Origin: Cladocopium goreaui | Taxonomy: Eukaryota; Sar; Dinophyceae; Suessiales; Symbiodiniaceae | Length of the DNA: 64,000 nucleotides | Direction of reading: 5' to 3' | NCBI GenBank assembly: GCA_947184155.2 | Contig: CAMXCT020003691.1 | Span: forward strand, 124,001-188,000 | Part shown: positions 3-48,585 of the stretch, piece by piece | Numbering within the stretch: the first letter of the stretch is position 1 | Layout of the letters: each line of letters begins with the position of its first letter | Position numbers and translations under genes: made by a program | Notes under the pieces: model-generated | What the model saw: only the letters and a program-made list of their open reading frames with translations | Told to the model about the DNA's origin: nothing | Databases searched by the model: none

Positions 3-3000
3 GATGAACACAATTGTATGCCTAAAGCCATCGTGGGTGATGAAGCTTTCTTTCAAGAAGACTTTCTGACTTATTACCGAACTCATGGTATCAAGGAATG
101 TCCCTGTGGTTCAAGAACCCCATGGCCTAACAGAGCTGAATCAGCTGTCAGACTTTTCAAACGACAATGGCAAATCATGTCCAAGAACCTTGAAGATGAT
201 AGGTTCAGAGGAATTACCATCAGAGAAGCTGTGAAGCGTACTGTTTGGGCCAGAAACACTCAACTCACTGTTAGTGGTTATTCTCCTTTGGAAATTGCCA
301 CTGGTAGAAGACCACCAGATCTTCTGGACATTGAGACTTCTGATCCTGCTCAACTTAGTGTTGATCCTTTACCTGAAGACAAAACACAACTCGAGTTGCA
401 AAGGTTAGCACTGAGGGCACATCAGGAAGCCAGACAAGCTGCTGACCTCAGACATGACATGGCCAAACGAACAATGCCATCAGATGGACCTTACAAACCA
501 GGTGACAAGGTTTTCGTTTGGAGTTCCCCTGTCAATGCTAATGCTATTGCTTCAAAGGCATGGAAGAAGGAAAGATGGATCAGAGGTACTGTTATCTCTC
601 AAGAAGGTGCTATGGTCAATGTTCATGTTGATAACGCAGTCATGCGTGTTAATCAATCAAAGGTGAGACGTGACCATGATGAATGGCATGATGTTGCTGT
701 TCCTGGACTTGACACATCAGAACCTGTTCCACTTGCAGTTGAAGATGAAGATGACTATGAACCAGATATCGCTGAATATGCTGAAGCCTACTTAGGTGAA
801 CAAGCTCACTGGTTTTGTCAAACTGGCAAGTGTGATGTTGTGGAACTTTTCAGTAGCAACACTGGTCTTAGTTGGCACATGGCACGATTGAACATGAAGG
901 TTGGTGAACCCGTTGACCACAAGCATGGTTGGAGTTTCAACAGTAAAAAGAAACAAAACCAAGTTTGGAAACAACTTGAGAAGCTTGATCCTGAATACGT
1001 GTTGATCACAAATCCTTCACCAAATTCCTGGAAATACTCGGTATTCAAGTTTTGCCTTGATGTGATGAAATGGCAAGCTGACCGAGGAAAAGGTTTCTTG
1101 GTGATTGCACCACCTGATTCAGGATTTGCTCAGTTTTTGGCTTGGAAGAAATTTCAGAAGGACAGAATCAAGTATCACATTGGTTGTTTCAACCTTGACA
1201 TGACAAATTACTGTCGTTGTGATCCTTCAATCAAGAACTTGCGTGTGTATTACAATCATGATGAAGACTTTGACATGTTGGAACCACAGCATGCCTTCAA
1301 TAGAGAAGGGAAGCTTTGGAATGATCCACAATGGAAGGTCTTACCATCTTACTTGTGTTCATTCATTGCGCAGTTCACACAACTTGTACCTTTGCAGAAC
1401 ATGAGACAATGTTTCTTGTTTGAAGATCTGTTGGAACATTTTGATGATGGAGCATTGTGTGGCACTTCAATGTTTTTGGACCGTGAACCTGAGTGCTCAT
1501 GTTTGTTGCAAGACTTGCATAATGTTGAGACCTCGATTCCAGTGCCGTTGAAGCACATTCTTCCACAGAGGTTTACCACTCAGTTACTTGTTCAAACATT
1601 GAGGAAGATTGATCAGTTGCCAAGGAGTACAGAGGCTAGTGTCAGAGAATCAACTGACCCCAGAATCATTGAACTGATTCCTGGACTTCAAGATGTCAGA
1701 AAGAAGACATTGCCTCAAATGTACTTTGAAGATTGCAGTGTGTTCAGAGGAACTTATGGAAGAGTGAATCCTTTGTTTCAACATCCTGAAGATGCTGTCC
1801 TACTTATTTGGAAACCTGGTGACTATGATCATGTTTACTTCATGTTTGTGTCACAGTTGTATCCACATCATGAACAGTTCAAAATCCATGAATGGAGTAT
1901 GATCGTCTTTTCACGAGAAACGACTGGTGCTATCAAAAGGAGAGTTGAAGATCCTCCTAGTTCAAGTAGCACACCACCAAATGGTGACGATCCCATTCAT
2001 CCAGATCAGCATGGTGATGTTCCACCAAATGATGATGAGATGTTGAGTGGTGATGAACCAGATGATCCTCTGGATGATGATAATCAACCTGATTACAATA
2101 CTGGACCTGATCCAGGTGATGATGATGATCAAGAGTACATCATTCCAGATGATTATGGACCACCACCTGATGATGATTTGGATATGCCAGGAATACAGGA
2201 CTCGGGGGAAACACATCAACCAAGTTCACCATCAACTCCGTTTTCCAATCCTGACATTCCAATCGAAGAGATTGCTGATCCTGGACAAGATGACGATTCT
2301 CCACCAGGACCTGATCCGACGTCAGAGCCTATCAGAGTTCAAAGGAAACAGAGACAGATCTCAACTGATTCTACTGATGCTTTACCAAAGGCAAAGGCAA
2401 GGGTGATTATCAAGAGGCCAAAGGTTCAATTACCAGGTCATGTTCAGCCAATTTCAGTTCCTACTCAGAAACCTCATGAAGATGAAGAGGAAGGACCTTC
2501 ACATGATCCTACTGCCTCAAGTTCACATGATAATACAATTCCTTTGCCTACTACTACACCAACATCGTTTACGCCAGGTGACTTTGCGCAGCCAGCGCAA
2601 CAGCAGTCTTCACAAGGAACACCAGAATTGGTATCACCACAACATGATGATGATGAAACAGAACCATATGAAACAGACGACACTCCTGTTTTGACTGAGG
2701 ATGACATTGCTCAGCTTCAGGAAGAAGATGTGGACACTGAACCTTACACATCAGACCACTCTCACTTTGTCGATGTTGATGGTACTGTTTTCGTTCCTTT
2801 AGGACCAAAGGTCCAAGCTGCACCTGAGTTTGGTTCATACGATGTTACTGGATTCAAACAGTTTGAACAGTATCTTGCCAAGAATGGAAAGAAGCAGCCA
2901 AAGGCAGAATCAGTTATCACTCAAGAAGTCTTGAGAAAGTGTGCTAAGGAGATCAAACAAGCCAAGCTTGAAGAATTCAGAAGTTTTCTGGATTTCACTG

Positions 3001-5225
3001 CCATGACTTTCAGAGACAAGAGACGTCATAAGATTGATAACTATGTCACTGGCAGATGGGTGCTTACCATCAAGGTTGATAAGGATGGACAGTTCAAGAA
3101 GTTCAAGGCTAGATGGGTATGTAGAGGCTTTCAAGATGCTCAAAAGTATGACTTACAGACTGACAGTCCTACTGCTACCAGGTATGGTTTTCGTGTGGCA
3201 TCTCAGCATGCAGCCTCGATGTACTGGGATTTACTCCATTTAGACTTGAAAACTGCCTTCCTTCAGGGGGAAACATACGACTTAGACCGCCGCGTTATCC
3301 ATGTTCAGTTGCCTACTGACATTGGTTTGCCTCCTTATTTGGTTGGTTTGTGCACTCGTTCCGTCTATGGACTTGCGGACGCACCACGTAGATGGTGGAA
3401 CCGCCTTGACAAATTTCTGATTTCGCTTGGTACTCAACCAACAAGAGCTGACAGGTGTACATATGTATGCTATGATGGTGCTTTTAAGGAGCCAAAACAG
3501 GTTAGCTTTGCTGACTCTGAGGCAACAGAACCAGCACCTGTGACATACTACGTAAGCTCACAAGACAGTGAGGAAACGCGTGATGAATCCTCCGACATTG
3601 CTGAGGAAGTTCATAAGTCTCTTTTGGTTGAAGAAAGATTGTTTTCAGCTTGCTATCAACAAACCCAAACATGGAAACAGAGGAAAGAGTTCAAGGAGAA
3701 GAAGGTTGAAGATTGTGCTTGGACTCCTGTTGTTGATGAAACCTTGTTGAAGTTTTTGGAATCTGTTGAACACAAGTCTGGTTGGTATCCTTTTGAAAAT
3801 GGTCATGCTCAAGTTGCTTATCGTGCAAAAGCTTTGAGAACTCCTGATTCACATTATGATCGAAAGAAGTTTCACTTGAGAACTTCTATTGTGAAGAGGA
3901 AGGGAGTCTGGTGGTTGCTTGAGATGAATCATGACATGAACAAGGACAATGTTTCCATAAGTTTGGAAGAAGAAGCTGAAGTACTTGTTTCAGTCTTCTT
4001 ACCTTCAGAGCGTACTTATATTGCCACGACACCACAGTTGACACCAGAGATTGTTGAACAACCCTTGGAACACTTCATGGACCCTGTGAATGGCAGTAAT
4101 GCCAAGGGAAGAAAACCTATTGGCATGTGTTGTTTGCATGTTTACGACTTGTTCATTACTGGAACTCCAGAGTTTCTGGAGAAGTTCAAGAAAGTTGTCA
4201 AGTCACAATTCAAGATTGGTCATGAAGATGTGAATGACTTGCTGTTCACTGGTCAACGTGTGAAATGGATCATTGATGAGAAGACCAAGAAGAAATCACA
4301 CATCACTGTTGAACAATCACTTTGTGTCAGTGAACTTACTGAGGTTGTCATACCAAAAGGTTTGAAGGATGAAGACAAATGTGACAAGGATCTCCACACT
4401 GCCTATAGATCACTCTTAGGTAGTATCAACTGGTTACAATCAAGAACTCAATTTCAGTCATGTTATCAGTTTTCACGTTGTGCTTCTGCCGCTGCTTCCC
4501 CCACCATAGGTGATTGCAAAACGCTGAACAAACTTTGCAGACAAATTGTAGGTGACCCGATGGAACTTATGTTCTGGCCACTGCAAGGTGATCCTAGATT
4601 AGTTGCAATGCCAGATGCAGCGTTTAGGAACAACAGCGACAAATCCTCACAGCGCGCGATCGTTATTTTCATGGCTGAACCAAGAAAGGAAAAGAGCAAA
4701 AACACCAGAGGTTCTCTTATTTTCTTTGAATCAACCAAAATCAAACGTACCACGTTGAGCACAACTGTTGCAGAGTTGTATGCACTCATGAAGTGTTATG
4801 GTACATGTCAAATGTTGAGAGGACTGATCAAGGACATCACTGGACTTTCAAGTGAGATTCATATGAGGACTGATGCAAACAATCTTGTGACTACTGCCAG
4901 CACTACTCATGTTCCTGAACAACAAGAGACTATTCATATGATTCAGATGCTTAGGAAGGAAGCATGTTCAGGTTCCATTGCTGACTTGTCACATATCAGA
5001 ACTCAATGGGGTTTAGCCGATTGTTTGACCAAGAAGTCTGCCAATCCTCAGAATCTTATTGATGCTGTTCGACAAGGTGTTCTTAAGGAAGTTGATGCTC
5101 ATCCACCATTCAGATCATTACTGGAACACAAGGCTTACCTCAGGTCATGGTTGCCAACAGTTTGCAGTCATATTGATTTCAGACATGATGTATTTCTGTT
5201 AGGTGACACCTTGAGGGATTCTTGA
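3..5225 (+). CDS. copia-type Pol polyprotein: integrase, reverse transcriptase, RNase H (5' partial)
   Basis: The frame is open from the window edge, so the ATG at 18 is internal; residues are numbered from it. The integrase C-terminal half has Asp8 and Glu41 (PNRAE) of the DDE triad. Residues about 270-440 start with VVELFSSNTGL and look like a degenerate cytosine-methyltransferase fold. An Asp/Pro-rich linker covers about 640-950. The RT has LDLKTAFLQGE (Asp1076) and SVYGLADAPRRWW, but motif C reads HVYD, with Tyr1376 where copia has Asp (YVDD). About 215 extra residues separate the YGL motif from motif C. RNase H has Asp1533, Glu1586 (TTVAELYAL), Asp1619 and Asp1668 (LADCLTK). It would copy element RNA into cDNA and integrate it; the HVYD change makes this copy's RT doubtful. 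The 1,735 codons are otherwise unbroken. Confidence 0.9.
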   Translation, partial: DEHNCMPKAIVGDEAFFQEDFLTYYRTHGIKECPCGSRTPWPNRAESAVRLFKRQWQIMSKNLEDDRFRGITIREAVKRTVWARNTQLTVSGYSPLEIATGRRPPDLLDIETSDPAQLSVDPLPEDKTQLELQRLALRAHQEARQAADLRHDMAKRTMPSDGPYKPGDKVFVWSSPVNANAIASKAWKKERWIRGTVISQEGAMVNVHVDNAVMRVNQSKVRRDHDEWHDVAVPGLDTSEPVPLAVEDEDDYEPDIAEYAEAYLGEQAHWFCQTGKCDVVELFSSNTGLSWHMARLNMKVGEPVDHKHGWSFNSKKKQNQVWKQLEKLDPEYVLITNPSPNSWKYSVFKFCLDVMKWQADRGKGFLVIAPPDSGFAQFLAWKKFQKDRIKYHIGCFNLDMTNYCRCDPSIKNLRVYYNHDEDFDMLEPQHAFNREGKLWNDPQWKVLPSYLCSFIAQFTQLVPLQNMRQCFLFEDLLEHFDDGALCGTSMFLDREPECSCLLQDLHNVETSIPVPLKHILPQRFTTQLLVQTLRKIDQLPRSTEASVRESTDPRIIELIPGLQDVRKKTLPQMYFEDCSVFRGTYGRVNPLFQHPEDAVLLIWKPGDYDHVYFMFVSQLYPHHEQFKIHEWSMIVFSRETTGAIKRRVEDPPSSSSTPPNGDDPIHPDQHGDVPPNDDEMLSGDEPDDPLDDDNQPDYNTGPDPGDDDDQEYIIPDDYGPPPDDDLDMPGIQDSGETHQPSSPSTPFSNPDIPIEEIADPGQDDDSPPGPDPTSEPIRVQRKQRQISTDSTDALPKAKARVIIKRPKVQLPGHVQPISVPTQKPHEDEEEGPSHDPTASSSHDNTIPLPTTTPTSFTPGDFAQPAQQQSSQGTPELVSPQHDDDETEPYETDDTPVLTEDDIAQLQEEDVDTEPYTSDHSHFVDVDGTVFVPLGPKVQAAPEFGSYDVTGFKQFEQYLAKNGKKQPKAESVITQEVLRKCAKEIKQAKLEEFRSFLDFTAMTFRDKRRHKIDNYVTGRWVLTIKVDKDGQFKKFKARWVCRGFQDAQKYDLQTDSPTATRYGFRVASQHAASMYWDLLHLDLKTAFLQGETYDLDRRVIHVQLPTDIGLPPYLVGLCTRSVYGLADAPRRWWNRLDKFLISLGTQPTRADRCTYVCYDGAFKEPKQVSFADSEATEPAPVTYYVSSQDSEETRDESSDIAEEVHKSLLVEERLFSACYQQTQTWKQRKEFKEKKVEDCAWTPVVDETLLKFLESVEHKSGWYPFENGHAQVAYRAKALRTPDSHYDRKKFHLRTSIVKRKGVWWLLEMNHDMNKDNVSISLEEEAEVLVSVFLPSERTYIATTPQLTPEIVEQPLEHFMDPVNGSNAKGRKPIGMCCLHVYDLFITGTPEFLEKFKKVVKSQFKIGHEDVNDLLFTGQRVKWIIDEKTKKKSHITVEQSLCVSELTEVVIPKGLKDEDKCDKDLHTAYRSLLGSINWLQSRTQFQSCYQFSRCASAAASPTIGDCKTLNKLCRQIVGDPMELMFWPLQGDPRLVAMPDAAFRNNSDKSSQRAIVIFMAEPRKEKSKNTRGSLIFFESTKIKRTTLSTTVAELYALMKCYGTCQMLRGLIKDITGLSSEIHMRTDANNLVTTASTTHVPEQQETIHMIQMLRKEACSGSIADLSHIRTQWGLADCLTKKSANPQNLIDAVRQGVLKEVDAHPPFRSLLEHKAYLRSWLPTVCSHIDFRHDVFLLGDTLRDS

Positions 5226-5230
5226 CTATT

Positions 5231-5247
5231 TTTTGAATTTGTGCCTG
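5231..5247 (+). promoter_or_regulatory. 17-nt direct repeat upstream of second ORF (copy 1)
   Basis: TTTTGAATTTGTGCCTG sits just after the pol stop codon and 44 bp before the ATG of the Tpt1-like ORF. An identical copy lies at 11465 in the 3' tail. A shared promoter or processing signal is possible; only the identity is seen. Confidence 0.3.
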
Positions 5248-5290
5248 CGGCTCAAAAGGCAGAGTCTCGAGGGCGCACTGTTTCTTCAAC

Positions 5291-6568
5291 ATGTCGAGCT
5301 CTAGCCGGTGGAACAGGGCCTCAGCCGCAGCATCTAGTGATCAGGCACAATCGAACACTCGAGGTCAAGAACATCAAAGCTATGATTTTAGTCGAAGACA
5401 TTCAGCTGATGGATATGCTCTGAGAAGATCAGAGGAAATCCCAGCTGACCAATTTCGAACACCATCGACATTACCCGATGAGGATCATTTATCATTTTGC
5501 TATGATTACAGGCGCCAAACAGATTGGTTTCAGGCTCACGAGCAAGTGAGGAAGAAGAGAGAGCGCAATTTACATACATTGATGGGTCCACACAACATGA
5601 GATCAACTGACAGACATGAAATGTTCATGGACGCAATAGCTTGGATTTTGCACTGGGGAACTAGTCATGGAGAATTTGATGAATCTTTGAAATGGACTTC
5701 AAGTTTTCTGAAGTATCTCTGTGGCTTTACAACTCAGGAAGAAGAAAACTGGTTTGATGAACGATGCAATGATTTCCACGTGGACATGACTAGCTCATCA
5801 AGGAGAAGTTATTATATGTCATGTAGCAAGAGGCTATCCAATGTGTTGAGACATTGCAGAGACAAAACGTTATTCACTGCCAGTGGAGCTATGAACATTT
5901 CTTTACTGTTTGATCAGATGCAAGGAGACAATCCAAAGGAATATCACATGTCTGGAGCAGATTTTGCTGCTATGTTACTGTGTAATCCAAAACAACGTTT
6001 CTTTGTTGAGATCTCCATGAGATGGCAGTGGTACCCATATAGCTCAATGGCAGAGTATCCATTCGACGTTCGTCTTGGTGCTTTTCAAGGACATAGCAAC
6101 CAAGTTGTCGATCCCACTGTGGCACACCACCAACTGACATATGATGAGGCTATGAGTTTGGGCTGGATTTTTCATGTCACTGATTACATGAATTTAGATT
6201 CCATGCAACAATCAGGCCTGAAGACCTTTGTGAAAGGAAGTGGAAAAGGCAGAAGGGATGCAGTTCACTTCATGTACCACAATGACAATGGTCAGGGCTA
6301 CATAAGGATGGCAGAGGGCACGAAGCCTCCAAGAAACTATAGGCGATCAGTGTACCTCGTGTTGGATCCAAGTTTTATTGTGGACAACCAACTCTATCTG
6401 ACAAAGAATGGTGTCATTTTATTTCATGGTGACATTCCTTTCCAGTACCTCCACGTCAAGGAACAACTCCCTACCATTGCATGCAACGTTGTTCATCAAG
6501 GACGTGGTCACTCTCTACCTCCATCGGTTACAGGTGGTTCATGGCACACCTGGACAAGACATTCCTGA
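5291..6568 (+). CDS. Tpt1/KptA-like RNA 2'-phosphotransferase domain protein in retroelement
   Basis: The Tpt1/KptA family removes a 2'-phosphate from RNA splice junctions and transfers it to NAD+. Motifs appear in family order: SKRLSNVLRH (Arg187, His188), VRLGAFQGHS (Arg261, His268), FHVT (His295, where the family has HGT), DAVHF (His326, for the HVH motif), YRRSVYLVLD (Arg351/Arg352) and NGVILFHGDIP. The Arg-His-Arg-Arg set essential in yeast Tpt1 can therefore be matched. The first 150 residues are Ser/Gln-rich and unrecognised. The ORF starts 65 bp after pol, in another frame. Its last 50 codons overlap the next ORF, which continues the protein in the +1 frame; the residues after about GGSW are probably out of frame. 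Role in the element is unknown; RNA repair or ADP-ribosylation of host RNA or protein is speculation. Confidence 0.75.
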   Translation: MSSSSRWNRASAAASSDQAQSNTRGQEHQSYDFSRRHSADGYALRRSEEIPADQFRTPSTLPDEDHLSFCYDYRRQTDWFQAHEQVRKKRERNLHTLMGPHNMRSTDRHEMFMDAIAWILHWGTSHGEFDESLKWTSSFLKYLCGFTTQEEENWFDERCNDFHVDMTSSSRRSYYMSCSKRLSNVLRHCRDKTLFTASGAMNISLLFDQMQGDNPKEYHMSGADFAAMLLCNPKQRFFVEISMRWQWYPYSSMAEYPFDVRLGAFQGHSNQVVDPTVAHHQLTYDEAMSLGWIFHVTDYMNLDSMQQSGLKTFVKGSGKGRRDAVHFMYHNDNGQGYIRMAEGTKPPRNYRRSVYLVLDPSFIVDNQLYLTKNGVILFHGDIPFQYLHVKEQLPTIACNVVHQGRGHSLPPSVTGGSWHTWTRHS

Positions 6569-9500
6569 GGAAGTCAGAATCACAGCATGGGAGTTCATGG
6601 GTCAGCAGGTTCCACAAAACTATGGAAGATTGGTTTTTGGTACACCACTATGCAACGAGAATGACTTTGACCCGGTTGTGGAATCAATCTATGGTGCTGC
6701 AGCAGAAGGCTCTCGAGAAAGAGAGGTATCTGCGCAGGCTGATGAAACCATGGAAAATCCATATGAACAACCATCAAGAAGAGGACGCTCTCCAGAAAGA
6801 GAGGAACCTCAAGATGTATGGGAGCAACAACGCTCCTCATCAGGAAGTCCAGAATCACCACAACATGATGATCCTCAACAAGATGCTCAAGACAATCAAC
6901 AAGAGGAGCCATCAGTGGACGTCCATGACGACCCAATGGGTGAAGAGGCTGTCAATCTTTGGGAAGCAGAAGATCCACCAGATGATATCGAAGACCCTGT
7001 TGTAGAACAGGCTACCAAAAGTTCAATTTCTGCATCGAATCCCTGGGTCCTGTATGAGGCAGGAATTGTCTGTGCAAGAGAAGAGAGCGGTGAACTCATC
7101 AAGAACTCCTCAGGAGAAAAAGTGATAGTTCTGCGTGAATGGAACCTACTACTCTCTTCACAAAAGATAGCACTTCGTAGACAATCGATCACTCGCTCAG
7201 ACTGGGAGAAGCTACCATGGACAGGACATCTATGCTTACTCTTCACAAGAGCTTGGGAGATTGGACGCATGTTGGCACACTTCCATCGAGAAGGAGACAT
7301 TGACGCCATGGAAGGTTACATGAACTCTTGTCGACAATATTGGACAGACTGGATGCGAGGTCAAACTGCCCCAACAGGTTGGGAAGACAGACACAATATC
7401 AACAGAGACGAATGGAGAGAGAAGTTCTTGCTATACGAAAGAGACTTAGCAATACAGAAGGACATGGAGTATCTCTCAGAAGCAGTCTTTGTCTTTTACA
7501 CCAAGCATCTTGATCAGTTCATTAGAGAGAACAACAAACTCTGGGGAGATTTCTGCAAGAGAAAGAAAGACCGTGATGGTAACATTTTGGATGCACTGGA
7601 GTTGAACACACATGGGTATGACATGACTATACAAGGAATTACAGTTCCCATGAACAAGAGAACAGTCATCCCTGAACCTGAACGGCACTTCTCGTTTTCC
7701 ACAAAGATGATGATCATGGCAATCGATCTGTATGAAGATGAAGCACCTGCTAGCTTCAGCCATTTCACAGTTTTTGCTCTGAACAAGCTTCGACAATTTG
7801 TGGATAGCAGAAAGGAATTGACAGCTCAATCCTACAGATTCTTTGTTGAACATGCCTACAATCAATTCTTTCAGCATGAAGCATTCCATCAATCTGCAAG
7901 AGCAAGGACAAAGGTCAGGGAATGCGGTTCAGGTGACTTCCACACATCTACAAAGCTCGATGGCTACATCTGGGTAGCTGGAAAGGACAAGATTGCTCAC
8001 ATCCCAGAATCAGAGCAACAGAATGTGGACATGGAAGATCACGATGATGATGATGCTGAAGATGATTTGGAGTTTTTGCCAAGACTACAAGTTTTTGTCA
8101 GGAAAGAGGAGGAAAAGGCATCAGGCTCTCAGGAAAGAGAGGAAGAAGGTGTATGCTCTCAAGAAAGAGAGGAAACACAACCACAACAAGAAGATGAGGT
8201 ATTACCAGATGCAAATCCTCGAAGAAATATGGAAGATCGACAGGGACTGTTTTTAGTCAGGCAACTCAAACCAGAGCACAGGAGGATCCTACAGGATATT
8301 ACACTTGCAGGCCAATCAATCCTCACCGGAGATGATCTTGAAGGAGGTCAACCCCTTGAACGTGGTGACATAAGCTTCTTCTCATTATGGTTGATGATGT
8401 CGGCATTATCAGATGCTTCCTTTTCAACATTTATGGAGCAGTATGCACCTATGATGGGTTGTGAGATCTCTTACGACAAGTATCATGAGTTCAAACTGGA
8501 TATTGACCAAGTTCTCAGGGAGAATGAACACCTTGGCGCAGAAAATTTCTTTGGAGCAGAGGATCCTGATTTGGTGGACGATGATCCAGACACTCCTCTT
8601 CCAGATCTTCAAAGACCAGGCGCAGGTGATCCTGAGTACAAACATACTATTGAAAGTTTGAACATTGAGGACAAACATATCATTTTGGAAACTGATGATG
8701 ACAAATTGGTTGAGTGTACATTGAAATGGATCAGTATGTGCAATCAGAATGTTCAACAAAAGATCAAGGACAGTTTTGTCAAACCAGAAGAACGACAAGA
8801 GAAAGAAGAGGATGAAGAAGAGGAAATTGCTGTCGAAGAAGAAGAAGAAAAAGACACACAGGAGCCACATGTCCCAGCTGAAGGCTCTTCAGAGAAAGAG
8901 GAATCAGCTCCACCTGAACGCTCCTCAGAAAAGGAGGAATCAGGGGAGAAGAAAACAGACATTCAAGATGATGAGACAGCTCCTGAAGTGAAACCTGCAA
9001 TTCGACTTTACTATGGTCAAGATATCACTGGAAACGAAGATGATTCAGTTTTTCGAAAATTGAAGGATTGTTTTTCAGATGATTACCATGGTGAATGGGC
9101 AGGATTTTACAACAAAGGTTATCCAGCGTCTTCGAAGCATCGACACATGTTTTGGCATGTCAAGTACAGAAAGACCATGTCTCCACATCAAGATTATTGG
9201 TACCATCTTACAGATGAACAGTTGATGGTTGAGTACATTGCCAGACACAAGGATCAGAATCCACAACTAGAATTACAAGAACTCAATCAGCGCATTGAAT
9301 ATGGTTGTAGTGATCCTAGGATGCATCCTCTTCATCAAGACAAAGCAGAAAGATCCTCAAAAGAAGCAGAAAAGAGGATTGATGATGATTTCGGAAATCT
9401 CACAAGGGTACTCCAAGATTACGTTGAGAACCACAAGGTCTTGCCTTACTGTATGATCTTGCATAGCTTGGCTTACAGGTATTTAGGTGGAGGCCTATCA

Positions 9501-9929
9501 GACCCAACTTACAAGGATGCCGAATTTCCATACAGATCCTCTCCACAGATAACAGCAATGTTTTGGAATTTGGGAAACTGGTGCAGAAACAGATTTGAAA
9601 AATGCCCGGTTCCAGAAAGATTTCAACAATTCATTCCACACATTGACTACACCATCGATGAGGATCATGAAAAATTTGATGAAAACAAATCACAGTTCAA
9701 CAATCACTTCATCAATGTCATCAAGAACTTTGGAGGACATCTTTTCATGAATTGCGAGGCTGGTTCATTGTATCCTCACAGAGAAAGACTCAACGAGGTT
9801 GACTTGAAAACTTGCTTCAATGACTATCATGACTTGATGGTGGCAGCTCGCCTTGGAAAGGATGGCTATATCAAGCAAATTGCTGGATATCACACAGATG
9901 ACAACGACACACGAGTTCGACAAGTCTAA
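6408..9929 (+). CDS. Retroelement accessory protein: acidic linkers and first half of EEP domain
   Basis: The open frame begins at 6408, but true coding in it probably starts near 6540, continuing the Tpt1-like ORF after a +1 frame change; codons 1-45 would then be spurious. It has Glu/Gln/Ser-rich segments with repeated SxEREE and SSEKEES motifs (about 110-180, 560-620, 780-860), a Trp/aromatic-rich middle I do not recognise, and a C-terminal EEP start: FWNLGNW (Asn1054) and NCEAGSL (Glu1117) fit the first two catalytic motifs. A TAA at 9927-9929 ends the frame, yet the same frame stays open on the other side and carries the rest of the domain. This is therefore a nonsense mutation or a readthrough site, not a natural end. 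Confidence 0.75.
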   Translation: MVSFYFMVTFLSSTSTSRNNSLPLHATLFIKDVVTLYLHRLQVVHGTPGQDIPEEVRITAWEFMGQQVPQNYGRLVFGTPLCNENDFDPVVESIYGAAAEGSREREVSAQADETMENPYEQPSRRGRSPEREEPQDVWEQQRSSSGSPESPQHDDPQQDAQDNQQEEPSVDVHDDPMGEEAVNLWEAEDPPDDIEDPVVEQATKSSISASNPWVLYEAGIVCAREESGELIKNSSGEKVIVLREWNLLLSSQKIALRRQSITRSDWEKLPWTGHLCLLFTRAWEIGRMLAHFHREGDIDAMEGYMNSCRQYWTDWMRGQTAPTGWEDRHNINRDEWREKFLLYERDLAIQKDMEYLSEAVFVFYTKHLDQFIRENNKLWGDFCKRKKDRDGNILDALELNTHGYDMTIQGITVPMNKRTVIPEPERHFSFSTKMMIMAIDLYEDEAPASFSHFTVFALNKLRQFVDSRKELTAQSYRFFVEHAYNQFFQHEAFHQSARARTKVRECGSGDFHTSTKLDGYIWVAGKDKIAHIPESEQQNVDMEDHDDDDAEDDLEFLPRLQVFVRKEEEKASGSQEREEEGVCSQEREETQPQQEDEVLPDANPRRNMEDRQGLFLVRQLKPEHRRILQDITLAGQSILTGDDLEGGQPLERGDISFFSLWLMMSALSDASFSTFMEQYAPMMGCEISYDKYHEFKLDIDQVLRENEHLGAENFFGAEDPDLVDDDPDTPLPDLQRPGAGDPEYKHTIESLNIEDKHIILETDDDKLVECTLKWISMCNQNVQQKIKDSFVKPEERQEKEEDEEEEIAVEEEEEKDTQEPHVPAEGSSEKEESAPPERSSEKEESGEKKTDIQDDETAPEVKPAIRLYYGQDITGNEDDSVFRKLKDCFSDDYHGEWAGFYNKGYPASSKHRHMFWHVKYRKTMSPHQDYWYHLTDEQLMVEYIARHKDQNPQLELQELNQRIEYGCSDPRMHPLHQDKAERSSKEAEKRIDDDFGNLTRVLQDYVENHKVLPYCMILHSLAYRYLGGGLSDPTYKDAEFPYRSSPQITAMFWNLGNWCRNRFEKCPVPERFQQFIPHIDYTIDEDHEKFDENKSQFNNHFINVIKNFGGHLFMNCEAGSLYPHRERLNEVDLKTCFNDYHDLMVAARLGKDGYIKQIAGYHTDDNDTRVRQV

Positions 9930-10823
9930 TGGGCAATCTTTGAAGTATCTTGGGGAAAGACAAAGAATCGAGATACAGATGAGATTGTTGACTTGACAAG
10001 AGCTAGGATGAGAATGACACGTGTGTGCGTTTATCACGTCGGACAGAAGTATGCATCAGACTCTGCGGGGATTGCTGGTGAGTGCTTAGCTGTTATGGCT
10101 TTTGAGTGTGCCAGATATCAAGTTGACTTCATCGCAGGTGATGGGAACAAGGCATGCTATTACAGCACACCAAAATCTCCAGGTGTCCCTACATATCAAC
10201 ACAGCCTTATCCAATTCTGGATCAACAGAATGGTAGGTGTTGCAACACAAGCCATGCGCAAGTATTTTGATTCATCTTGCCCTCCAATCAGGGTCAAGCA
10301 TTTCATTTCTTGCAGTTATCGTGACTTGGATTTTCTTGCAACGCACTTGGATGGCATTACAACAGCAACATACACCGACGAGCTCATGACCAAGACGAAT
10401 GGTAAAGGTGATTGTTGTATGTTAACAGTTGTTGAGTGGGGTCATTCACGTTTGATGTGTGAGGAACACCCAGAAGACTTTGAGGATGAAGATCACATGA
10501 ACTATGTGGGTGAATTTTACTTCAAGGTAAATGAAACTTGCTTACATGGTGATCACAACATCTTCATGGTTGCTCCAAATGATCGCGATGCTCATAATCC
10601 AATTCTTATCCATCTTGATCCTTCTGATATGTCATGGAATGAACGACATCATTACAAACAGGCCTACAAGAAGAAGCAGTATGCTGATTCAAGAAAGGAA
10701 AGACAGAAGGAGAAAAAGAGAAAGGTATATGAAGATCAAGCATCGACGTATCAGGGCAACACAGAGTGGGGTGGATCCTCCTCTTCAGCGTCCAGACCAT
10801 GGAGATCAAGTGAGTGGCGATGA
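9930..10823 (+). CDS. Second half of EEP domain, same frame after TAA
   Basis: The frame reads straight on from the TAA with no further stop; the first ATG is at 9993 and residues are numbered from it. GDGN (Asp50, Asn52) matches the EEP GDFN motif, and DAHNPI (Asp199, His201) matches the closing SDH motif. Together with WN and CEA before the stop, the four core EEP motifs are complete. The last 50 residues are Lys/Arg/Ser-rich. EEP proteins are metal-dependent nucleases or phosphatases (APE1, LINE endonucleases, deadenylases, 2'-5' phosphodiesterases). Which of these applies here cannot be told. If the TAA is not read through, this half is dead or needs its own start. Confidence 0.65.
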   Translation, partial: WAIFEVSWGKTKNRDTDEIVDLTRARMRMTRVCVYHVGQKYASDSAGIAGECLAVMAFECARYQVDFIAGDGNKACYYSTPKSPGVPTYQHSLIQFWINRMVGVATQAMRKYFDSSCPPIRVKHFISCSYRDLDFLATHLDGITTATYTDELMTKTNGKGDCCMLTVVEWGHSRLMCEEHPEDFEDEDHMNYVGEFYFKVNETCLHGDHNIFMVAPNDRDAHNPILIHLDPSDMSWNERHHYKQAYKKKQYADSRKERQKEKKRKVYEDQASTYQGNTEWGGSSSSASRPWRSSEWR

Positions 10824-13760: not shown

Positions 13761-13832
13761 GCCTTGGATGCGCGTCTGCCTCTACGTCAGCTGCGCTGCA
13801 GCGAGTGCCGTGGCGGCGATGTCTTGGCACAG
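13761..13832 (+). CDS. LRR unit 1 exon (24 codons)
   Basis: Follows GGGAG and precedes GCGGGC (GC donor). Divergent unit: ALDARL, then LxxLRC and GGDVLAQ, two residues short of the 26-residue type. GC-rich next to the satellite. It is the leftmost unit; no upstream exon was identified. Confidence 0.5.
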
Positions 13833-14428: not shown

Positions 14429-14509
14429 GCCGCAGCGTTGGCTCTACGGCACTGCTCTCTGAGTCAACTGGTGCTGGCACATGACCACATCAGTGTGAAG
14501 GGCGCTGAG
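14429..14509 (+). CDS. LRR unit 2 exon (27 codons)
   Basis: TGCAG|GCC start and GAG|GCGCTG end (GC donor). Residues: AAALAL, LVLAHDHI, KGAE. The sequence just inside the donor, GCGCTG, again reads Ala-Leu, like the start of the next unit. Confidence 0.8.
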
Positions 14510-15759: not shown

Positions 15760-15840
15760 GCCTTGGCAGAAGCTTTGCAGCAGAACCGGCTGACGGAGTT
15801 GGTCCTGGATCACAACCAGCTGAGACCCCGTGGGGCTGAG
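15760..15840 (+). CDS. LRR unit 3 exon (27 codons)
   Basis: CCCAG|GCCTTGGC start, GAG|GCGCGC end. Residues: ALAEALQQN, LVLDHNQL, RGAE. A 566-bp segment that recurs at 18706 begins 24 bp downstream. Confidence 0.85.
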
Positions 15841-17542: not shown

Positions 17543-17626
17543 GCCTTGGGCAAAGCTTTGAGATGGAACCAGACATTGATTCATTTGGACTTGGCCCACA
17601 ATTTCATCGGCTACAAGGGCGCAGAG
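17543..17626 (+). CDS. LRR unit 4 exon (28 codons)
   Basis: TCTAG|GCCTTGG start, GAG|GATCGG end (GA donor). Residues: ALGKALRWN, LDLAHNFI, KGAE. Exactly 84 nt, phase 0. Confidence 0.9.
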
Positions 17627-19789: not shown

Positions 19790-19836
19790 GAGTTCTCCAA
19801 GTCTTTGCGATTGAACCACACTCTACAGCGCCTACT
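19790..19836 (+). CDS. LRR unit 5, first part (47 nt)
   Basis: CCCAG|GAGTTC start. Cut before GCGACC (GC donor) it gives 15 codons plus 2 nt: EFSKSLRLN then TLQRL. With 20446-20482 it makes exactly 84 nt, one complete 28-residue LRR. Confidence 0.7.
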
Positions 19837-20445: not shown

Positions 20446-20482
20446 GCTTCCCTTCAACAACATCAAAGACAAAGGTGCTGAG
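20446..20482 (+). CDS. LRR unit 5, second part (37 nt)
   Basis: CCCAG|GCTTCC start, GAG|GCGGCG end. Supplies LPFNNI and KGAE. Joined to 19790-19836 the frame and the Leu/Asn spacing are restored. Confidence 0.7.
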
Positions 20483-21601: not shown

Positions 21602-21679
21602 GCCCTGGCTTTAGCCCTGCCCAGCAGCTTGCAGCACTTGGATCTCACCAGCAACGACCTTCGAGAAGCTGCCGCGGAG
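21602..21679 (+). CDS. LRR unit 6 exon (26 codons)
   Basis: GCCAG|GCCCTGG start, GAG|GTTTTT end (GT donor). Residues: ALALALPSS, LDLTSNDL, AAAE. It is a two-residue-shorter LRR type shared with units 7 and 14. Confidence 0.85.
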
Positions 21680-24551: not shown

Positions 24552-24629
24552 GTGCTAGCTGCGTGTTTAAACCATCACCTTCGGCGGCTGGATCTGGGTA
24601 TGAACCGCCTTGGTGATGGTGGAGCAGAG
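24552..24629 (+). CDS. LRR unit 7 exon (26 codons)
   Basis: CAGCAG|GTGCTAG start (or three bases earlier), GAG|GTGGGA end (GT donor). Residues: VLAACLNHH, LDLGMNRL, GDGGAE. Confidence 0.85.
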
Positions 24630-26496: not shown

Positions 26497-26580
26497 GCCT
26501 TGGCCAATGCCTTGCGCGGCAACGAATGCCTGACGCATTTGGACCTCTCGCACAACGATTTGCAGCGCCCAGCTGGTGAG
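26497..26580 (+). CDS. LRR unit 8 exon (28 codons)
   Basis: ATAG|GCCTTGGCC start, GAG|GCAGTG end (GC donor). Residues: ALANALRGN, LDLSHNDL, PAGE. Exactly 84 nt. Confidence 0.9.
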
Positions 26581-27461: not shown

Positions 27462-27545
27462 GCTCTAGCGGATGCCCTGCGGGTCAACACAAGTCTTTCG
27501 CATTTGGACCTGGCTCGCAATGAGTTGCGGCAGCGGGGCGCTGAG
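27462..27545 (+). CDS. LRR unit 9 exon (28 codons)
   Basis: TAAAG|GCTCTAGCG start, GAG|GCCGTC end (GC donor). Residues: ALADALRVN, LDLARNEL, QRGAE. Exactly 84 nt. Confidence 0.9.
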
Positions 27546-29189: not shown

Positions 29190-29273
29190 GCGTTGATCGG
29201 AGCCCTGCATGAGAATCGCACGCTGCGGCATTTGGATCTGGCGGAGAATCGTGTGGGCTTCAAAGTGGCGGAG
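29190..29273 (+). CDS. LRR unit 10 exon (28 codons)
   Basis: TGCAG|GCGTTG start, GAG|GCGGGA end (GC donor). Residues: ALIGALHEN, LDLAENRV, KVAE. GGACCCG/CGGGTCC inverted repeat begins 3 nt inside the intron. Confidence 0.9.
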
Positions 29274-34803: not shown

Positions 34804-34887
34804 GCCCTTGCGGCAGATCTTCGCAGCGGGGCGATGTTGAGCACGTTGAAGTTGGCACGTGATGAGTTGAGTGGTGGGGGAATTCAG
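34804..34887 (+). CDS. LRR unit 12 exon (28 codons)
   Basis: ATCAG|GCCCTTGCGG start, CAG|GCGGAT end (GC donor). Residues: ALAADLRSG, LKLARDEL, GGGIQ. First of the GIQ/GIK-ending units. Exactly 84 nt. Confidence 0.85.
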
Positions 34888-36212: not shown

Positions 36213-36296
36213 GTCTTGGCGGATGCCTTGAGCATCAACAGCTCGGTCCGCAGCTTGTGCCTGGAAGGTGCAGAACTGGGCGACTTTGGGATCCAG
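36213..36296 (+). CDS. LRR unit 13 exon (28 codons)
   Basis: AGCAG|GTCTTGGCGG start, CAG|GTGCTC end (GT donor). Residues: VLADALSIN, LCLEGAEL, FGIQ. A GCTCCC/GGGAGC inverted repeat lies just inside the intron. Confidence 0.9.
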
Positions 36297-38103
36297 GTGC
36301 TCCCGCCGCTCCCGGGGGAGCCTTGGGGATTGGTGGTTTTTCACCCGATTTTGGGGGTAAACCCATGGGTAAAAGCATGGGAAAAAGCTAAGGAAAAAGG
36401 GAGGAGCCTAGGGTAAAAGCGAAACCATGAACATTACGAGTGGAGATGGTTTTATGAAGGGGATTGATCAGCCAACTGATGTTCATTTGTCGAGAATGCT
36501 CTCGCCATAAATCTTTTCGGTACGTCAACATGTGGGATCCCCTCGAAAAGGCTAAGGAATTGTTGAATCCGAAGAACATGAATAACTGGGCAGTGATGCA
36601 TTTTAGATCAAAGGCGGAGTCCACATTGTGGAGAACAAGGGAAATTGACTTTTTGGTTTGCATCAATCATTTCTGAATCATCCTGTTTTGCAATGAGATA
36701 ATCACTGAATCACCTTGATGTTCACACCATGTATACCACATACCAGGTGTCACTCAGTATCTCAACTAATATCAACCCCAAAAGAGGACTTAAGAGGCGG
36801 CTTGGGAAACTATACTTCGTAAGATTCATAGATTTCATATCGTCAAAAAACACCACGAAAACCATCAAATCAACTCAATCGAGGCTTTTCGGAAACCAAC
36901 TCGCCATCACCACGGCCGTAACAGGTATTGGCAGAAGGTCTGAAGAAAAACAACTCCATCAGGACTGTGGCGAACTGGCGAACGGACGGGCAGTCGAAAA
37001 TCCCCATTGGGAACCCAATAATCTCATATACCCTCTGGTAAACTGCCACATAACTATGGAAAGATCCACCCATTTTTAATGGGTAAACCATCTATAAATG
37101 GCATGTTCAATAGCTATGTTAGTTTACCAGAGGGTAATATTATATAATGTCCAATCATCGCCAATCTGTAGGATTGGGAAATCTGCATGTAGCCATCATC
37201 TGGTTGGTTTCTTGATGACTTTGGTGCTGCCAGATCATATTCAAATAGGGGATGTAAATCACACTGTTTCTGGATGAATTTCATCGTGATCTCACATCAC
37301 GATCAGGTCCGAGTTGCAGGTTCGATCGAAATTAGCACAGGCAGAGCCTGTGGCACAAGTGGCTTGACCATAGAATACAAATGTGGATAAACATTTTGGG
37401 TACTAGCTGCTGTTCGGGTGAGTTAATCCGATCATGATATCGATTGGTTCTCGATATTTTCGGTGTCGACGTCCCACTGTTTTTAGGTAACGATGATATG
37501 GCGTTGATGGTTAGCGACAATTGGGAGAAACAATCAAGGTGAAAACTTTGCCAAAGTCTTGAAATATTCTGGTGTCGGGGGTGTGAGATGTGTATAATAC
37601 TGTTGATGTCTAGGCAGCACATGTTGTTGGGGTGGAATTTGGTCTAAAAGAGCAAAAATAGTTTGTGAATTGCACGGCTTATTTGGAATGAGAGAGATGC
37701 GACATTGAGACTAGGGAAAACCAGGTGCGCGTCGCACTGCACCGTGGCGTTCACCTGGGCTAGGCGATACAGGCATAGGATCATAGCCTTGACTTGTGAT
37801 TTTCCGTGCAACATCTGGATGCTCCAGGTCAATTTGAAATGCAGGTGCTAAACTCGACCTTTTCCAGCTGACCTTGTTTGTGTACAGGCGTTCGACCCAA
37901 CTGAATGCAACATCAGATACCTCTCATCTGCACCCAAAAAATGAATAGACCCAATTCCAATACTAAGCTAGGGTTGATAAGGGAACATATAGTACTTTCA
38001 TGTATTACATATAAAACCATATAAAGCCCATTTAACATCCCTTAACAAACTCTCACTATAGATATATCATGATATATCTAACCATAAGCCAAGGTTTACC
38101 CAG
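36297..38103. other. Intron between LRR units 13 and 14
   Basis: One family B copy; otherwise short ORFs without recognisable product. A GTGCGCGTCGCACTGCACC stretch at 37725 follows CCAG but reaches a stop and fits no LRR. Confidence 0.5.
37029..37136. mobile_element. Family B element
   Basis: TACCCTCTGGTAAACTG to GTTTACCAGAGGGTA. Confidence 0.85.
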
Positions 38104-38135
38104 GCCCACCTTGGATGTCTGGTGGAAAATCTCGA
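38104..38135 (+). CDS. LRR unit 14, first part (32 nt)
   Basis: CCCAG|GCCCACC start, CTCGA|GATCCC end (GA donor). AHLGCLVEN. With 38841-38886 gives 78 nt, a 26-residue LRR of the unit 6/7 type. Confidence 0.6.
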
Positions 38136-38268
38136 GATCCCTTGGAAGGTCATGGGAAAACCATGGGGAAGTAATCGAAAAATCCCTGGGAAAATCTCTA
38201 TGAATGGAAGTTTATAGCTGGGATTTCACCATCGAAGTTGATTTGAAGGATTTTCCAGCCTTGATGAC

Positions 38269-38372
38269 TACCCTCTGGTAAACTAACATAACTATGGACA
38301 ATTACCATTTTTAATGGGAAAACTCACTATCAATGGCCATTTTCAATAGCATTTTGACATAACCAGAGGGTA
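38269..38372. mobile_element. Family B element
   Basis: TACCCTCTGGTAAACTAACA to CATAACCAGAGGGTA. Confidence 0.85.
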
Positions 38373-38390
38373 AATAATACTAAATAACAT

Positions 38391-38513
38391 TACCCTCTGG
38401 CAATCCAACACGGCAACTGAATCCACTAACTGTGGACAAGCACGTCCCACGTGCTTTCTTGGTTCCGGACATGTTCCGGATGTTGAATTTCCAAGTTGGG
38501 TTACCAGAGGGCA
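38391..38513. mobile_element. Family B-ended element with foreign core
   Basis: TACCCTCTGGCAATCC to GGTTACCAGAGGGCA, but the core (GGACAAGCACGTCCCACGTG) differs from other B copies. Confidence 0.65.
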
Positions 38514-38618
38514 CATGATAATCAATATAGATTGACATATAGATTGATAAATCAATATAGGTTGATATATAGTAATATAGATTGTGTAATTTACATAGTA
38601 TATAATCAGGAATGTCAT

Positions 38619-38743
38619 CTGGTTGGTGGTTTGGAACATGGCTTTTATTTGTCCCATCATATTGGGAATGTCATCATCCCAACTGCAACTGACGAACTCA
38701 CTCCATCTTTTTCAGAGGGGTAGGTATAACAACCACCAACCAG
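38619..38743 (+). mobile_element. Family A element, TSD TCAT
   Basis: CTGGTTGGTGG to CCACCAACCAG; TCAT on both sides, then a TTAACCATCATTAA tract to 38810. Confidence 0.85.
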
Positions 38744-38840
38744 TCATTATTAACCATCATTAATCATCATTCACCGTCATTAAATCACCATTAATCACCA
38801 TTAACTGGGGCTGGTCTAATGCTGGGATGCGTATCGCCAG

Positions 38841-38886
38841 GATATTGAACCTGCGCGACAATTTGATTGGCGATCCTGGAATCAAG
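38841..38886 (+). CDS. LRR unit 14, second part (46 nt)
   Basis: GCCAG|GATATTG start, AAG|GCCGGC end (GC donor). LNLRDNLIGDPGIK. GAT stands at both the donor of part one and the start of this part. Confidence 0.75.
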
Positions 38887-39527: not shown

Positions 39528-39555
39528 GCCTTGGCCGGCGCGCTGAAGAGAAACG
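39528..39555 (+). CDS. LRR unit 15, first part (28 nt)
   Basis: ATAAG|GCCTTGGCC start, AAACG|GACGCT end (GA donor). ALAGALKRN. With 40776-40831 makes exactly 84 nt. Confidence 0.75.
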
Positions 39556-39706
39556 GACGCTTGGCAGCCCTCGGATGGTGCAACCCCTGACTTCGCAACA
39601 AAAAACCTCTTCTTACCCTGGCAACAAGCATGTCCACATCTCATGATGCATATTTTGTTTGAAAAAAATAAAATAACTGTGTTTCGTGTGATTTAGGCTT
39701 GAATTT

Positions 39707-39800
39707 TAGGGTGTTAGAATATAGGGTTTTGGTGTTTATGGTTTTTGGGTTTATGGTGTAGGGCTTTGGTGTTTTGGGGTCTAGGGTTTATGCTGGTTCT
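39707..39800 (+). repeat. Degenerate TTTAGGG-like repeats
   Basis: TTAGGGTGTTAGAATATAGGG, GTAGGGCTTTGG and CTAGGGTTTA: imperfect heptamers of plant/alveolate telomere type. Confidence 0.5.
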
Positions 39801-40390
39801 TTCCTGAAAAGGAACGATAGAAATAAGGTTTTATGCAGTATACAGCAGTATACAAATATTCTTCCACGTAGAGCGCGGGCAAAGGTGGGGGTTGCAACGA
39901 ACATATTTAAACGACTAATTTGCAGAGTGTTGAACCTGAATTAGTTGAGTCGATGATTTTGGGCATTTTCCTAAAGGGAAATCCACTACGATGGGGAACA
40001 TGTGTTATTTTTTTGGGTTCCTTAATCAAATCAATGCAAGTGAAACAATTAATTTGGAGAGTCTGGATTTCCAGTGATTTACCGGAGAACCTTCTATTTG
40101 GGGGCAATAGTAACAATGAAAATTAGGATATGATTGGATATGCTATGGGAGATATCAACTAGATATGATTTTGTGTCTGAAAATGTGGTTTACCATACCC
40201 TTTTTCTATGGTAATTTCATGTTCTTGGCTTATCGTTTGCTGTGCGGGGAAAGTTGGATATGGAAAAACATGTCATCATGTCCAAAAAAAGTCGTAGCAA
40301 ACAGCCAAGTTTGGAGAGCATGAGCTCAAAATCCTGATGTGGTGGCTTGATTGAAAATAGGTTTTGCCATGTTTTGCCTAAAACCCTATG

Positions 40391-40502
40391 CTGGTTGGTG
40401 GTTTGGAATATAGCTTTCATTTTTCCCATCATATTGGGAATGTCATCATCCCAACTGACGAACTCCATCATTTTTCAGAGGGGTAGGTCAACCACCAACC
40501 AG
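40391..40502 (+). mobile_element. Family A element
   Basis: CTGGTTGGTGG to CCACCAACCAG, then a TCATTAACCA tract to about 40710. Confidence 0.85.
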
Positions 40503-40710
40503 TCATTAAAAAAAACAATCATTAATCATCATTGACCATCATGAAAAATCACCAGAAAAATCATCATTAACAGGTCAGTATGTCGTTCTATTATACTCAT
40601 CATTAAATCACCATTAATCACCATTAATCATCATTAACCATCAGTTATCATCATTAACCATCAGTAACCATCATTAACCATCATTAACCATCATTAACCA
40701 TTAACCCTGT
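40503..40710. repeat. TTAACCATCA tract
   Basis: ATCATTAACCATCATTAACC repeats, reverse complement of the TTAATGATGG tract. Confidence 0.85.
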
Positions 40711-40775
40711 TTATTCTTTAAAAAAAATGCCTTTTTTGTCATGGCATCTTTCGATGTTCGGACGCCGGATCTCAG

Positions 40776-40831
40776 GCAGCATCAGACTCTTGAAGCTAGA
40801 GATCAACGAAATTGGCGATGAGGGAATCAAG
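40776..40831 (+). CDS. LRR unit 15, second part (56 nt)
   Basis: CTCAG|GCAGC start, AAG|GTGAAT end (GT donor). SIRLLKLEINEIGDEGIK. Joined to 39528-39555 it restores a textbook 28-residue LRR. Confidence 0.8.
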
Positions 40832-42413: not shown

Positions 42414-42497
42414 GCCTTGGCCGTGGCGTTGAAGTCGAACCGAGCCCTGCGGACGCTGTTTCTGGGGAACAATGAGATTGGAGACGAGGGAATCAAG
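42414..42497 (+). CDS. LRR unit 16 exon (28 codons)
   Basis: GGCAG|GCCTTGGCC start, AAG|GCGCTC end (GC donor). ALAVALKSN, LFLGNNEIGDEGIK. The donor sits in an ATCAAGGC/GCCTTGAT hairpin (42490-42517). Confidence 0.95.
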
Positions 42498-45410: not shown

Positions 45411-45443
45411 GCCTTGGCTGAAGCCTTGCAAGAGAACACTTCA
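45411..45443 (+). CDS. LRR unit 17, first part (33 nt)
   Basis: GACAG|GCCTTGGCTG start, TCA|GCAACT end (GC donor). ALAEALQENTS, cut after codon 11 as in unit 18. Confidence 0.65.
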
Positions 45444-46400: not shown

Positions 46401-46502
46401 GTGAACACCTTGGGCATCCGCGGCAAGAACATCTTGCGCATCACCTCTGCCACGGCACCACTGTACCTGGTGCACAACGAGCTGGGCGACGACGCCATCA
46501 AG
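46401..46502 (+). CDS. LRR unit 17, second part, doubled (102 nt)
   Basis: GCCAG|GTGAAC start, AAG|GCCGGG end (GC donor). Exactly 2 x 51 nt: VNTLGIRGKNI fits LRR positions 12-22, and TAPLYLVHNELGDDAIK fits positions 12-28. Either a duplicated second half or a fused exon. AGGCC/GGCCT hairpin at the donor. Confidence 0.65.
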
Positions 46503-47457: not shown

Positions 47458-47490
47458 GCACTGGCTGAAGCTTTGAAGGTGAACAGATCA
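47458..47490 (+). CDS. LRR unit 18, first part (33 nt)
   Basis: GCCAG|GCACTGGC start, TCA|GTCACA end (GT donor). ALAEALKVNRS. With 48535-48585 gives exactly 84 nt. Confidence 0.8.
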
Positions 47491-48534
47491 GTCACATGGC
47501 GCTTCGAAGGGTCGTTGAAAGATTTGGAACCAAGTTACAAGACGAATAGCCTCTGGTAAACTCACATAGCTGTTGAAAATAACCATTTATTAATGGGAAA
47601 ATCCACGATTTCTATGACCATGTTAGCTATGTTAAATTACCAGAGGGTAGAAGAAAAACCATGTTTATTCAACCAATTGCAGATGTCTCCTGTAGATATA
47701 TTGTAAATTGTCCCTGAAAAATTCTGGGCAACTTGAGGAGTGATTATTCAAGCACTGTGACTTGAAATCTAAGTAGCAACCAGTCGGCGCAAACATGTGA
47801 GCTGGCAAAGTACATGACATGCCCGTATTTGTTCATCCCCACCCAAGTTGACTCATCTGTTTATCGGGTAAATAGAAATAGAACCCAATCCAAGGACTGA
47901 TTAAGTTGCAGTCGGAACCAGCAAGCGTCAAGTACTGTATAATTATGGGATAGTATGGGGGGTGTGAATGGATACGGGCTATCCAATGTCAAAGTCAACC
48001 AACCCCATGTTGATGCTTGCCCATGCAAAATTCATCCACAAACGAACTCATATTCAACAAACACCCAAACAGAAGCAACAAGCATGGTTCATATTGAGAA
48101 TGGGGTCTCCAAATTTCAGGGTCATGGGTCCCATGTTTGGACGTATTTTCAAGGGATTGGAGTGCGTTGTGCTTATATTCTTAGGGGAAAAAAGACACCT
48201 TTTCAGTAGCAGGCAGCTGGCACTCGTTTGTTTTGTACTCCGTATGCCGTATGCCCTGGAAAGGAGAACAACCAGATTGCCTCAGCCAGGCCTGGTAGGT
48301 CAACTGCTCAAATTCCCATAGCATGCATATCCGTTGAAAAAAGCACCTTTTTTGATCCCTTGTTTAGATGTTGAGACCCTCATGTTTCATAGATAAAATC
48401 ATGAAGAAGAACAACATGATCAAACCATGATGAAAAACCATATAGATTCATGATAAAACATGATAAAACCATATAGAACCCCATGTTTTCATGGAAAAAA
48501 ATATCCCAGTCGGTCAATCCTCCAAGCTTCTGAG
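47491..48534. other. Intron inside LRR unit 18
   Basis: 1,044 bp with one family B copy; about 47650-48350 unassigned, AACCATATAGA repeats near 48430. Confidence 0.6.
47547..47649. mobile_element. Family B element
   Basis: TAGCCTCTGGTAAACTCACA to TTACCAGAGGGTA. Confidence 0.8.
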
Positions 48535-48585
48535 GTCAGCCAGCTCTATCTGGGTGATCATGACATTGGCGACGAAGGCATCAAG
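48535..48585 (+). CDS. LRR unit 18, second part (51 nt)
   Basis: TGAG|GTCAGC start, AAG|GCGACA end (GC donor). VSQLYLGDHDIGDEGIK. GTCA stands both at the donor of part one and at the start of this part. Confidence 0.85.

Follow-up and report, generated by a model that had tools for sequence, protein, structure and literature searches.

A stretch of Cladocopium goreaui DNA carries 16 ribonuclease-inhibitor-type leucine-rich repeats (LRRs) on its + strand between positions 14429 and 48585. Whole phase-0 exons account for 11 of these 16 units, and the remaining five are each divided by an inner intron (47+37, 38+46, 28+56, 33+102 and 33+51 nt). The reading that we favour, with a probability of about 80%, is that the array forms the LRR portion of a single protein-coding gene that ancestrally had one exon per repeat, that the inner introns were gained later and that the divided parts are spliced together exactly. 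Intron gain in dinoflagellates is an already known process; for split LRR exons in these organisms, no earlier description was found among the titles and abstract beginnings listed from one open-licence library.

Whole and divided repeats of the LRR array

The window, meaning the whole stretch of 64,000 nt analysed here, spans positions 124001–188000 of contig CAMXCT020003691.1, and the assembly searched comprises 1.166 Gb in 6202 contigs. A 28-column profile was built from the 11 whole LRR units, with the split units kept out of training, and leave-one-out scores of the whole units ranged from 19.6 to 56.9 bits. When all window positions were scored without a splice requirement, the 11 whole units reached 52.0–69.9 bits on the + strand. 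If out-of-register hits to these units are set aside, the positions ranking next (5–13 bits) were the ends and beginnings of split units; no position on the minus strand exceeded 5 bits. Whole exons measure 78, 81 or 84 nt and have AG/G edges, the slash marking the border. The same profile column carries AG/G at both edges in all 11 whole units, which shows only that the column is constant across them, since the profile was aligned so that its first column falls on the exon edge.

Split units were sought by a join scan for two fragments, the first starting at AG/G and ending at G[T/C/A], the second rejoining at AG/G, with a sum of 84, 81 or 78 nt. In the list below, whole units were placed by the profile and divided units by the join scan, except that unit 15 came from a search for unit beginnings and ends.

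13761..13832, + strand: tentative LRR-like exon 0, 72 nt, AG/G start and AG/GC end; weak, not among the 16 units
14429..14509, + strand: LRR unit 1, whole exon of 81 nt
15760..15840, + strand: LRR unit 2, whole exon of 81 nt
17543..17626, + strand: LRR unit 3, whole exon of 84 nt
19790..19836, + strand: LRR unit 4, N-part of 47 nt, donor GC; 19.6 bits when joined
20446..20482, + strand: LRR unit 4, C-part of 37 nt, joined with 19790
21602..21679, + strand: LRR unit 5, whole exon of 78 nt
24552..24629, + strand: LRR unit 6, whole exon of 78 nt
26497..26580, + strand: LRR unit 7, whole exon of 84 nt
27462..27545, + strand: LRR unit 8, whole exon of 84 nt
29190..29273, + strand: LRR unit 9, whole exon of 84 nt
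34804..34887, + strand: LRR unit 10, whole exon of 84 nt
36213..36296, + strand: LRR unit 11, whole exon of 84 nt
36925..36962, + strand: LRR unit 12, N-part of 38 nt, donor GA; 24.8 bits when joined
38841..38886, + strand: LRR unit 12, C-part of 46 nt, joined with 36925
39528..39555, + strand: LRR unit 13, N-part of 28 nt, donor GA; 39.4 bits when joined
40776..40831, + strand: LRR unit 13, C-part of 56 nt, joined with 39528
42414..42497, + strand: LRR unit 14, whole exon of 84 nt
45411..45443, + strand: LRR unit 15, N-part of 33 nt, donor GC
46401..46502, + strand: LRR unit 15, C-part exon of 102 nt (51+51), 17 residues longer than a unit
47458..47490, + strand: LRR unit 16, N-part of 33 nt, donor GT; 43.4 bits when joined
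48535..48585, + strand: LRR unit 16, C-part of 51 nt, joined with 47458

The tentative exon at 13761–13832 lies within a GC-rich block, and its N-part score of 5.7 bits is at background level.

Within the window, 24 joins exceeded 14 bits. Among the 23 of these that were listed, the best join for each unit end was 47458/48535, 39528/40776, 36925/38841 or 19790/20446, and the others were alternative beginnings for the same four ends. High-scoring alternatives included a 22+56 variant of 39528/40776 (38.5 bits) and 45411 placed before 48535, which reaches 43.0 bits since 45411 begins a unit of its own. In a separate check, the first 28 nt of exon 36213 placed before 40776 gave 44.0 bits; as that exon is whole, the fit is read as homology and not as a rival join. 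Unit 14 is the closest DNA relative of unit 13 (0.667) among the 84-nt units compared. Altogether, the five further unit beginnings (19790, 36925, 39528, 45411 and 47458) and the five further ends (20482, 38886, 40831, 46502 and 48585) alternate strictly along the + strand. A search of twelve gaps for further split units returned background-level parts only, the best N-part scoring 6.9 bits (30613) and the best C-part 8.2 bits (25846); the latter, an end-like piece out of alternation, was taken as background.

Two divided units weigh against the favoured reading. Unit 4 is a weak LRR, its N-part scoring 8.6 bits. Unit 15 does not give 84 nt on joining, and its cut point within the unit is the same as that of 47490/48535. 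Position 46401 is the nearest AG/G upstream of the end of unit 15, and the unit scores 37.1 bits without the first 51 nt of the 46401 exon and 8.6 bits without the last 51; the exon at 46401–46502 therefore carries 51 nt beyond one unit. Its first 51 nt are poor as unit columns 12–28 and its second 51 nt are good, the two halves being 29% identical.

The original prediction had proposed four reconstructed repeats. Three are recovered exactly, each as a 28-residue LRR with acceptor AG/G: 39528–39555 with 40776–40831 (28+56 nt, donor GA), 47458–47490 with 48535–48585 (33+51 nt, donor GT) and 19790–19836 with 20446–20482 (47+37 nt, donor GC). The fourth, which joined 38104 to 38841 (32+46 = 78 nt), was a mispairing: this join scores 14.0 bits, against 24.8 bits and 84 nt for 36925/38841, and 38104–38135 was accordingly replaced by 36925–36962 as the N-part of unit 12. 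The split unit 45411/46401 was absent from that list of four pairs. The broader proposal of the original prediction, one ancestral exon per LRR into which introns later entered, fits well, with 11 of 16 units whole, even if one pair was wrong and one split unit was overlooked.

Joined in order, the 21 exons form 1377 nt or 459 codons with no stop and with fitting phases. All boundary introns are in phase 0, and the inner introns fall at unit nt 47, 38, 28, 33 and 33, in phases 2, 2, 1, 0 and 0. Unit and exon borders, splice grammar and open frame are in this sense established by computation. A Pfam search covering the LRR part matched the joined protein to LRR_6 (1.3e-59), and ribonuclease inhibitors are among its best PDB relatives, with NLRP chains also present among the matches. 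The array shares with ribonuclease-inhibitor (RI)-type LRR proteins, including the LRR domains of NLRs, a repeat of 26–28 residues and the pattern LxxLxLxxN...G..GAxALAxAL. Vertebrate RI and NLR genes have one or two repeats per exon, and LRR genes with one exon per repeat are known in animals. Unlike in the RI and NLR systems, five of the 16 repeats here are cut by an inner intron and, in contrast to NLRs, neither NACHT nor any other partner domain was recognised in the LRR part, the portion that was searched.

Other sequence features of the window were also recorded. Positions 18–10823 (+) hold an open frame for a Copia-type reverse transcriptase (RVT_2, 2.8e-16), downstream of it an open frame at 5291–6568 (+) with a Tpt1/KptA RNA 2'-phosphotransferase domain (3.6e-9), and another two open frames that lack a Pfam match. 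Between 14200 and 50900, many introns contain palindromic MITE-like repeats of two families, the first with CTGGTTGGTGGTTT / AACCACCAACCAG ends and the second with TACCCTCTGGT / ACCAGAGGGTA ends.

Strength of the joins and splice grammar

The joins exceed chance by far. With whole units as the sole training data, the four joins of the scan scored 19.6–43.4 bits, whereas second-order Markov resampling of the window (150 resamples) gave 5.3 bits at best and 24 loci from elsewhere in the genome gave at best 4.5 bits (454,648 strand-bases, 12 joins above 0 bits); no minus-strand join in the window exceeded 8 bits. The evidential strength of the joins comes from the fit of LRR letters on both sides and not from the sum. 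A sum of 84 nt is permitted by 9.8% of 19,844 random AG/G start/end pairs, and one of 84, 81 or 78 nt by 21.8%; taken alone, the 84-nt sum is modest evidence. The earlier judgement that a four-fold fit could hardly arise by chance had given too much weight to the sum alone. As the scan required AG/G and G[T/C/A] and penalised stops, the edges of the split units and the open frame do not constitute independent evidence.

Outside 14429–48585, in 114 kb of contig, ten unpaired LRR-like parts scored 8.1–11.4 bits, overlapping the weakest true part; parts alone at that level are therefore not significant. When scanned for joins, the ten parts stayed at or below 5 bits in the flanking loci and at or below 14 bits within the window. 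Base composition also separates the split parts from the introns (GC 51.8% versus 38.8%), a value never reached when intron pieces were drawn at random 5000 times.

An alternative is that exon shuffling or pseudo-exons account for some of the parts, which would then be unspliced relics of broken units with coincidental 84-nt fits. The share of random edge pairs that permit such a fit is compatible with this, unit 15 is irregular, and the DNA past the 28-nt part at 39528 encodes two leucines that keep the LRR register ahead of a stop. However, the strict alternation of beginnings and ends, the open frame across all 459 codons and join scores far above both nulls make this explanation very unlikely.

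The splice signals agree with those of dinoflagellate spliceosomal introns, which also use GT, GC or GA donors and an AG/G acceptor, and no departure was found. The 21 exon-end donors comprise 13 GC, five GT and three GA, and the acceptor is AG/G in 21 of 21 exons, an edge that the scan required for the split units. In S. natans, D. trenchii and C. proliferum, the donor shares given in PMC10666404 are 44–58% GC, 24–37% GT and 17–20% GA, with AGG at 96–97% of acceptors.

The Prp8 gene of the same genome, located by family search and with junctions placed by protein alignment to human Prp8, served as a control of this grammar. G[T/C/A]...AG/G was found at 17 of 17 placed junctions between adjacent exons, a count that leaves out L034–L035 and L050–L051, where the intervening exon or exons were not found. 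The joined central part aligns with human Prp8 over 317 residues with no gap, and domain IV is interrupted once, by a nine-residue gap where an exon was not found. Since donor and acceptor classes guided the placing, the control demonstrates consistency and not independence.

Origin of the inner introns

Under the favoured reading, each ribonuclease-inhibitor-type LRR would ancestrally have occupied one phase-0 exon, and spliceosomal introns would later have entered units at four positions (nt 47, 38, 28 and 33). In the predicted transcript, the parts would be spliced exactly, restoring the solenoid repeat. Whole LRR exons without an inner intron on four other contigs make gain the best reading, and we infer that the inner introns represent gains and not losses. 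The intron at nt 33 is common to the adjacent units 15 and 16, for which the simplest account is a single gain followed by duplication of the split unit; independent gains at nt 33 in the two units are the alternative. No homology between these two introns appeared among the 46 intron pairs listed, in a comparison of the introns of the LRR gene with each other.

The opposite history, in which every unit once had an inner intron that was lost from most of them, would account for the division of five of the 16 units and for the shared position in units 15 and 16. We regard it as highly improbable, because four inner positions in three phases would demand intron sliding or many separate ancestral introns, and because no real split unit was found at seven loci with whole LRR exons on other contigs. 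Contigs C1184, C5045, C4556 and C3037 hold at least 29 distinct whole LRR exons, 27 of them retrieved with the motif ALAEALxxNTSVTSIDL (30 rows, three of them repeat entries from overlapping loci) and a further two in L033. This motif could not match any split exon, and splits were therefore sought separately by join scan in L001, L002, L004, L006, L007, L008 and L033, where no real one was found; L033 gave the only two joins above 14 bits, each combining 72 nt of a whole exon with 12 nt of another, and these were rejected. The nearest such exon to unit 16 (0.70 DNA identity) is uninterrupted at the position of unit 16's intron. The whole LRR exons found elsewhere are for the most part tandem duplicates and do not count as independent witnesses.

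Arrays of other layouts occur in the same genome. In L001, L002, L004 and L006 (C1184, C5045 and C4556), a whole 84-nt LRR exon and an intron of ~370–400 nt recur in tandem every 453–483 bases. On contig C3502 (L003 and L005), LRR open frames run for several hundred codons without an intron, and matches span ~156 kb; the 84-nt repeats there mostly start and end at AG/G, and the join scan fires trivially between neighbours (up to 44.9 bits). A genome search with a 329-residue query gave matches outside the window of 30–48% identity, mostly in long open frames, and no recent paralogue of the LRR gene was present among the 122 of 538 candidates scored.

Introners, donor bases and the counting of intron gains

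Introner elements of dinoflagellates create new introns inside exons, as proposed here for the LRR gene. Introners and intron gain in this group are described in PMC11453091, PMC10666404, PMC7789003 and PMC9860276, and the review PMC11453091, citing Roy et al. 2023, reports recently active introners in four of five dinoflagellate genomes. In Symbiodinium microadriaticum, 4-bp duplications and co-opted donors are described (PMC9860276), and the inner introns could likewise be introner transposons whose 4-bp target duplication supplied the donor from its copy. A GTCA direct repeat flanks the intron at 47491–48534, and the intron at 36963–38840 is flanked by CAG/GA and has a 7-nt inverted repeat near its ends. 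Introners have been recognised by inverted repeats of 8–20 nt that lie no more than 30 nt from either end of the intron (PMC10666404). Unlike the ends so described, none of the five inner introns has an exact terminal inverted repeat of at least 8 nt, the longest being 7 nt. In-register direct repeats measure 2, 5, 2, 1 and 4 nt and, in a shuffle test, are only marginal when summed over the five introns (P 0.048; longest, P 0.20). End direct repeats of 3–5 nt occur in two of the five inner introns (5 and 4 nt) and those of 3–6 nt in 15 of 15 boundary introns, where the AG/G consensus alone largely yields them. None of this amounts to a clear introner signature in the inner introns, and an origin from such elements is unlikely.

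A second signal concerns the donor itself. In 15 of the 20 introns of the LRR gene, the donor and the exon downstream of it agree in their second base, against 9.35 expected (P 0.0045, post hoc, with 15 informative offsets examined); by class, the match holds in 12 of 15 boundary introns (P 0.021) and three of five inner introns. It was not replicated in 17 Prp8 introns (7 versus 5.7 expected, P 0.33), and pooling the LRR gene with Prp8 gave 22 of 37 against 14.5 expected (P 0.006). No literature tying dinoflagellate splice donors to target site duplication was found. We advance as a rather unlikely, speculative idea that repeat arrays serve as an internal clock of intron gain and that GC, GT and GA donors may partly be fossils of a duplicated AGGN target. 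The whole sister units, in this gene and elsewhere in the genome, act as intron-free references, so that at least four independent gains would be recognisable in one gene without an outgroup.

The gene structure is real and well defined, of a known kind and a useful test case. It would imply that a spliceosome tolerant of GC and GA donors recognises exons of 28–38 nt exactly. Should transcripts bear out the joins, dinoflagellate repeat genes would offer a clean and cheap count of intron gains, because the repeats left whole show the exon as it was before insertion.
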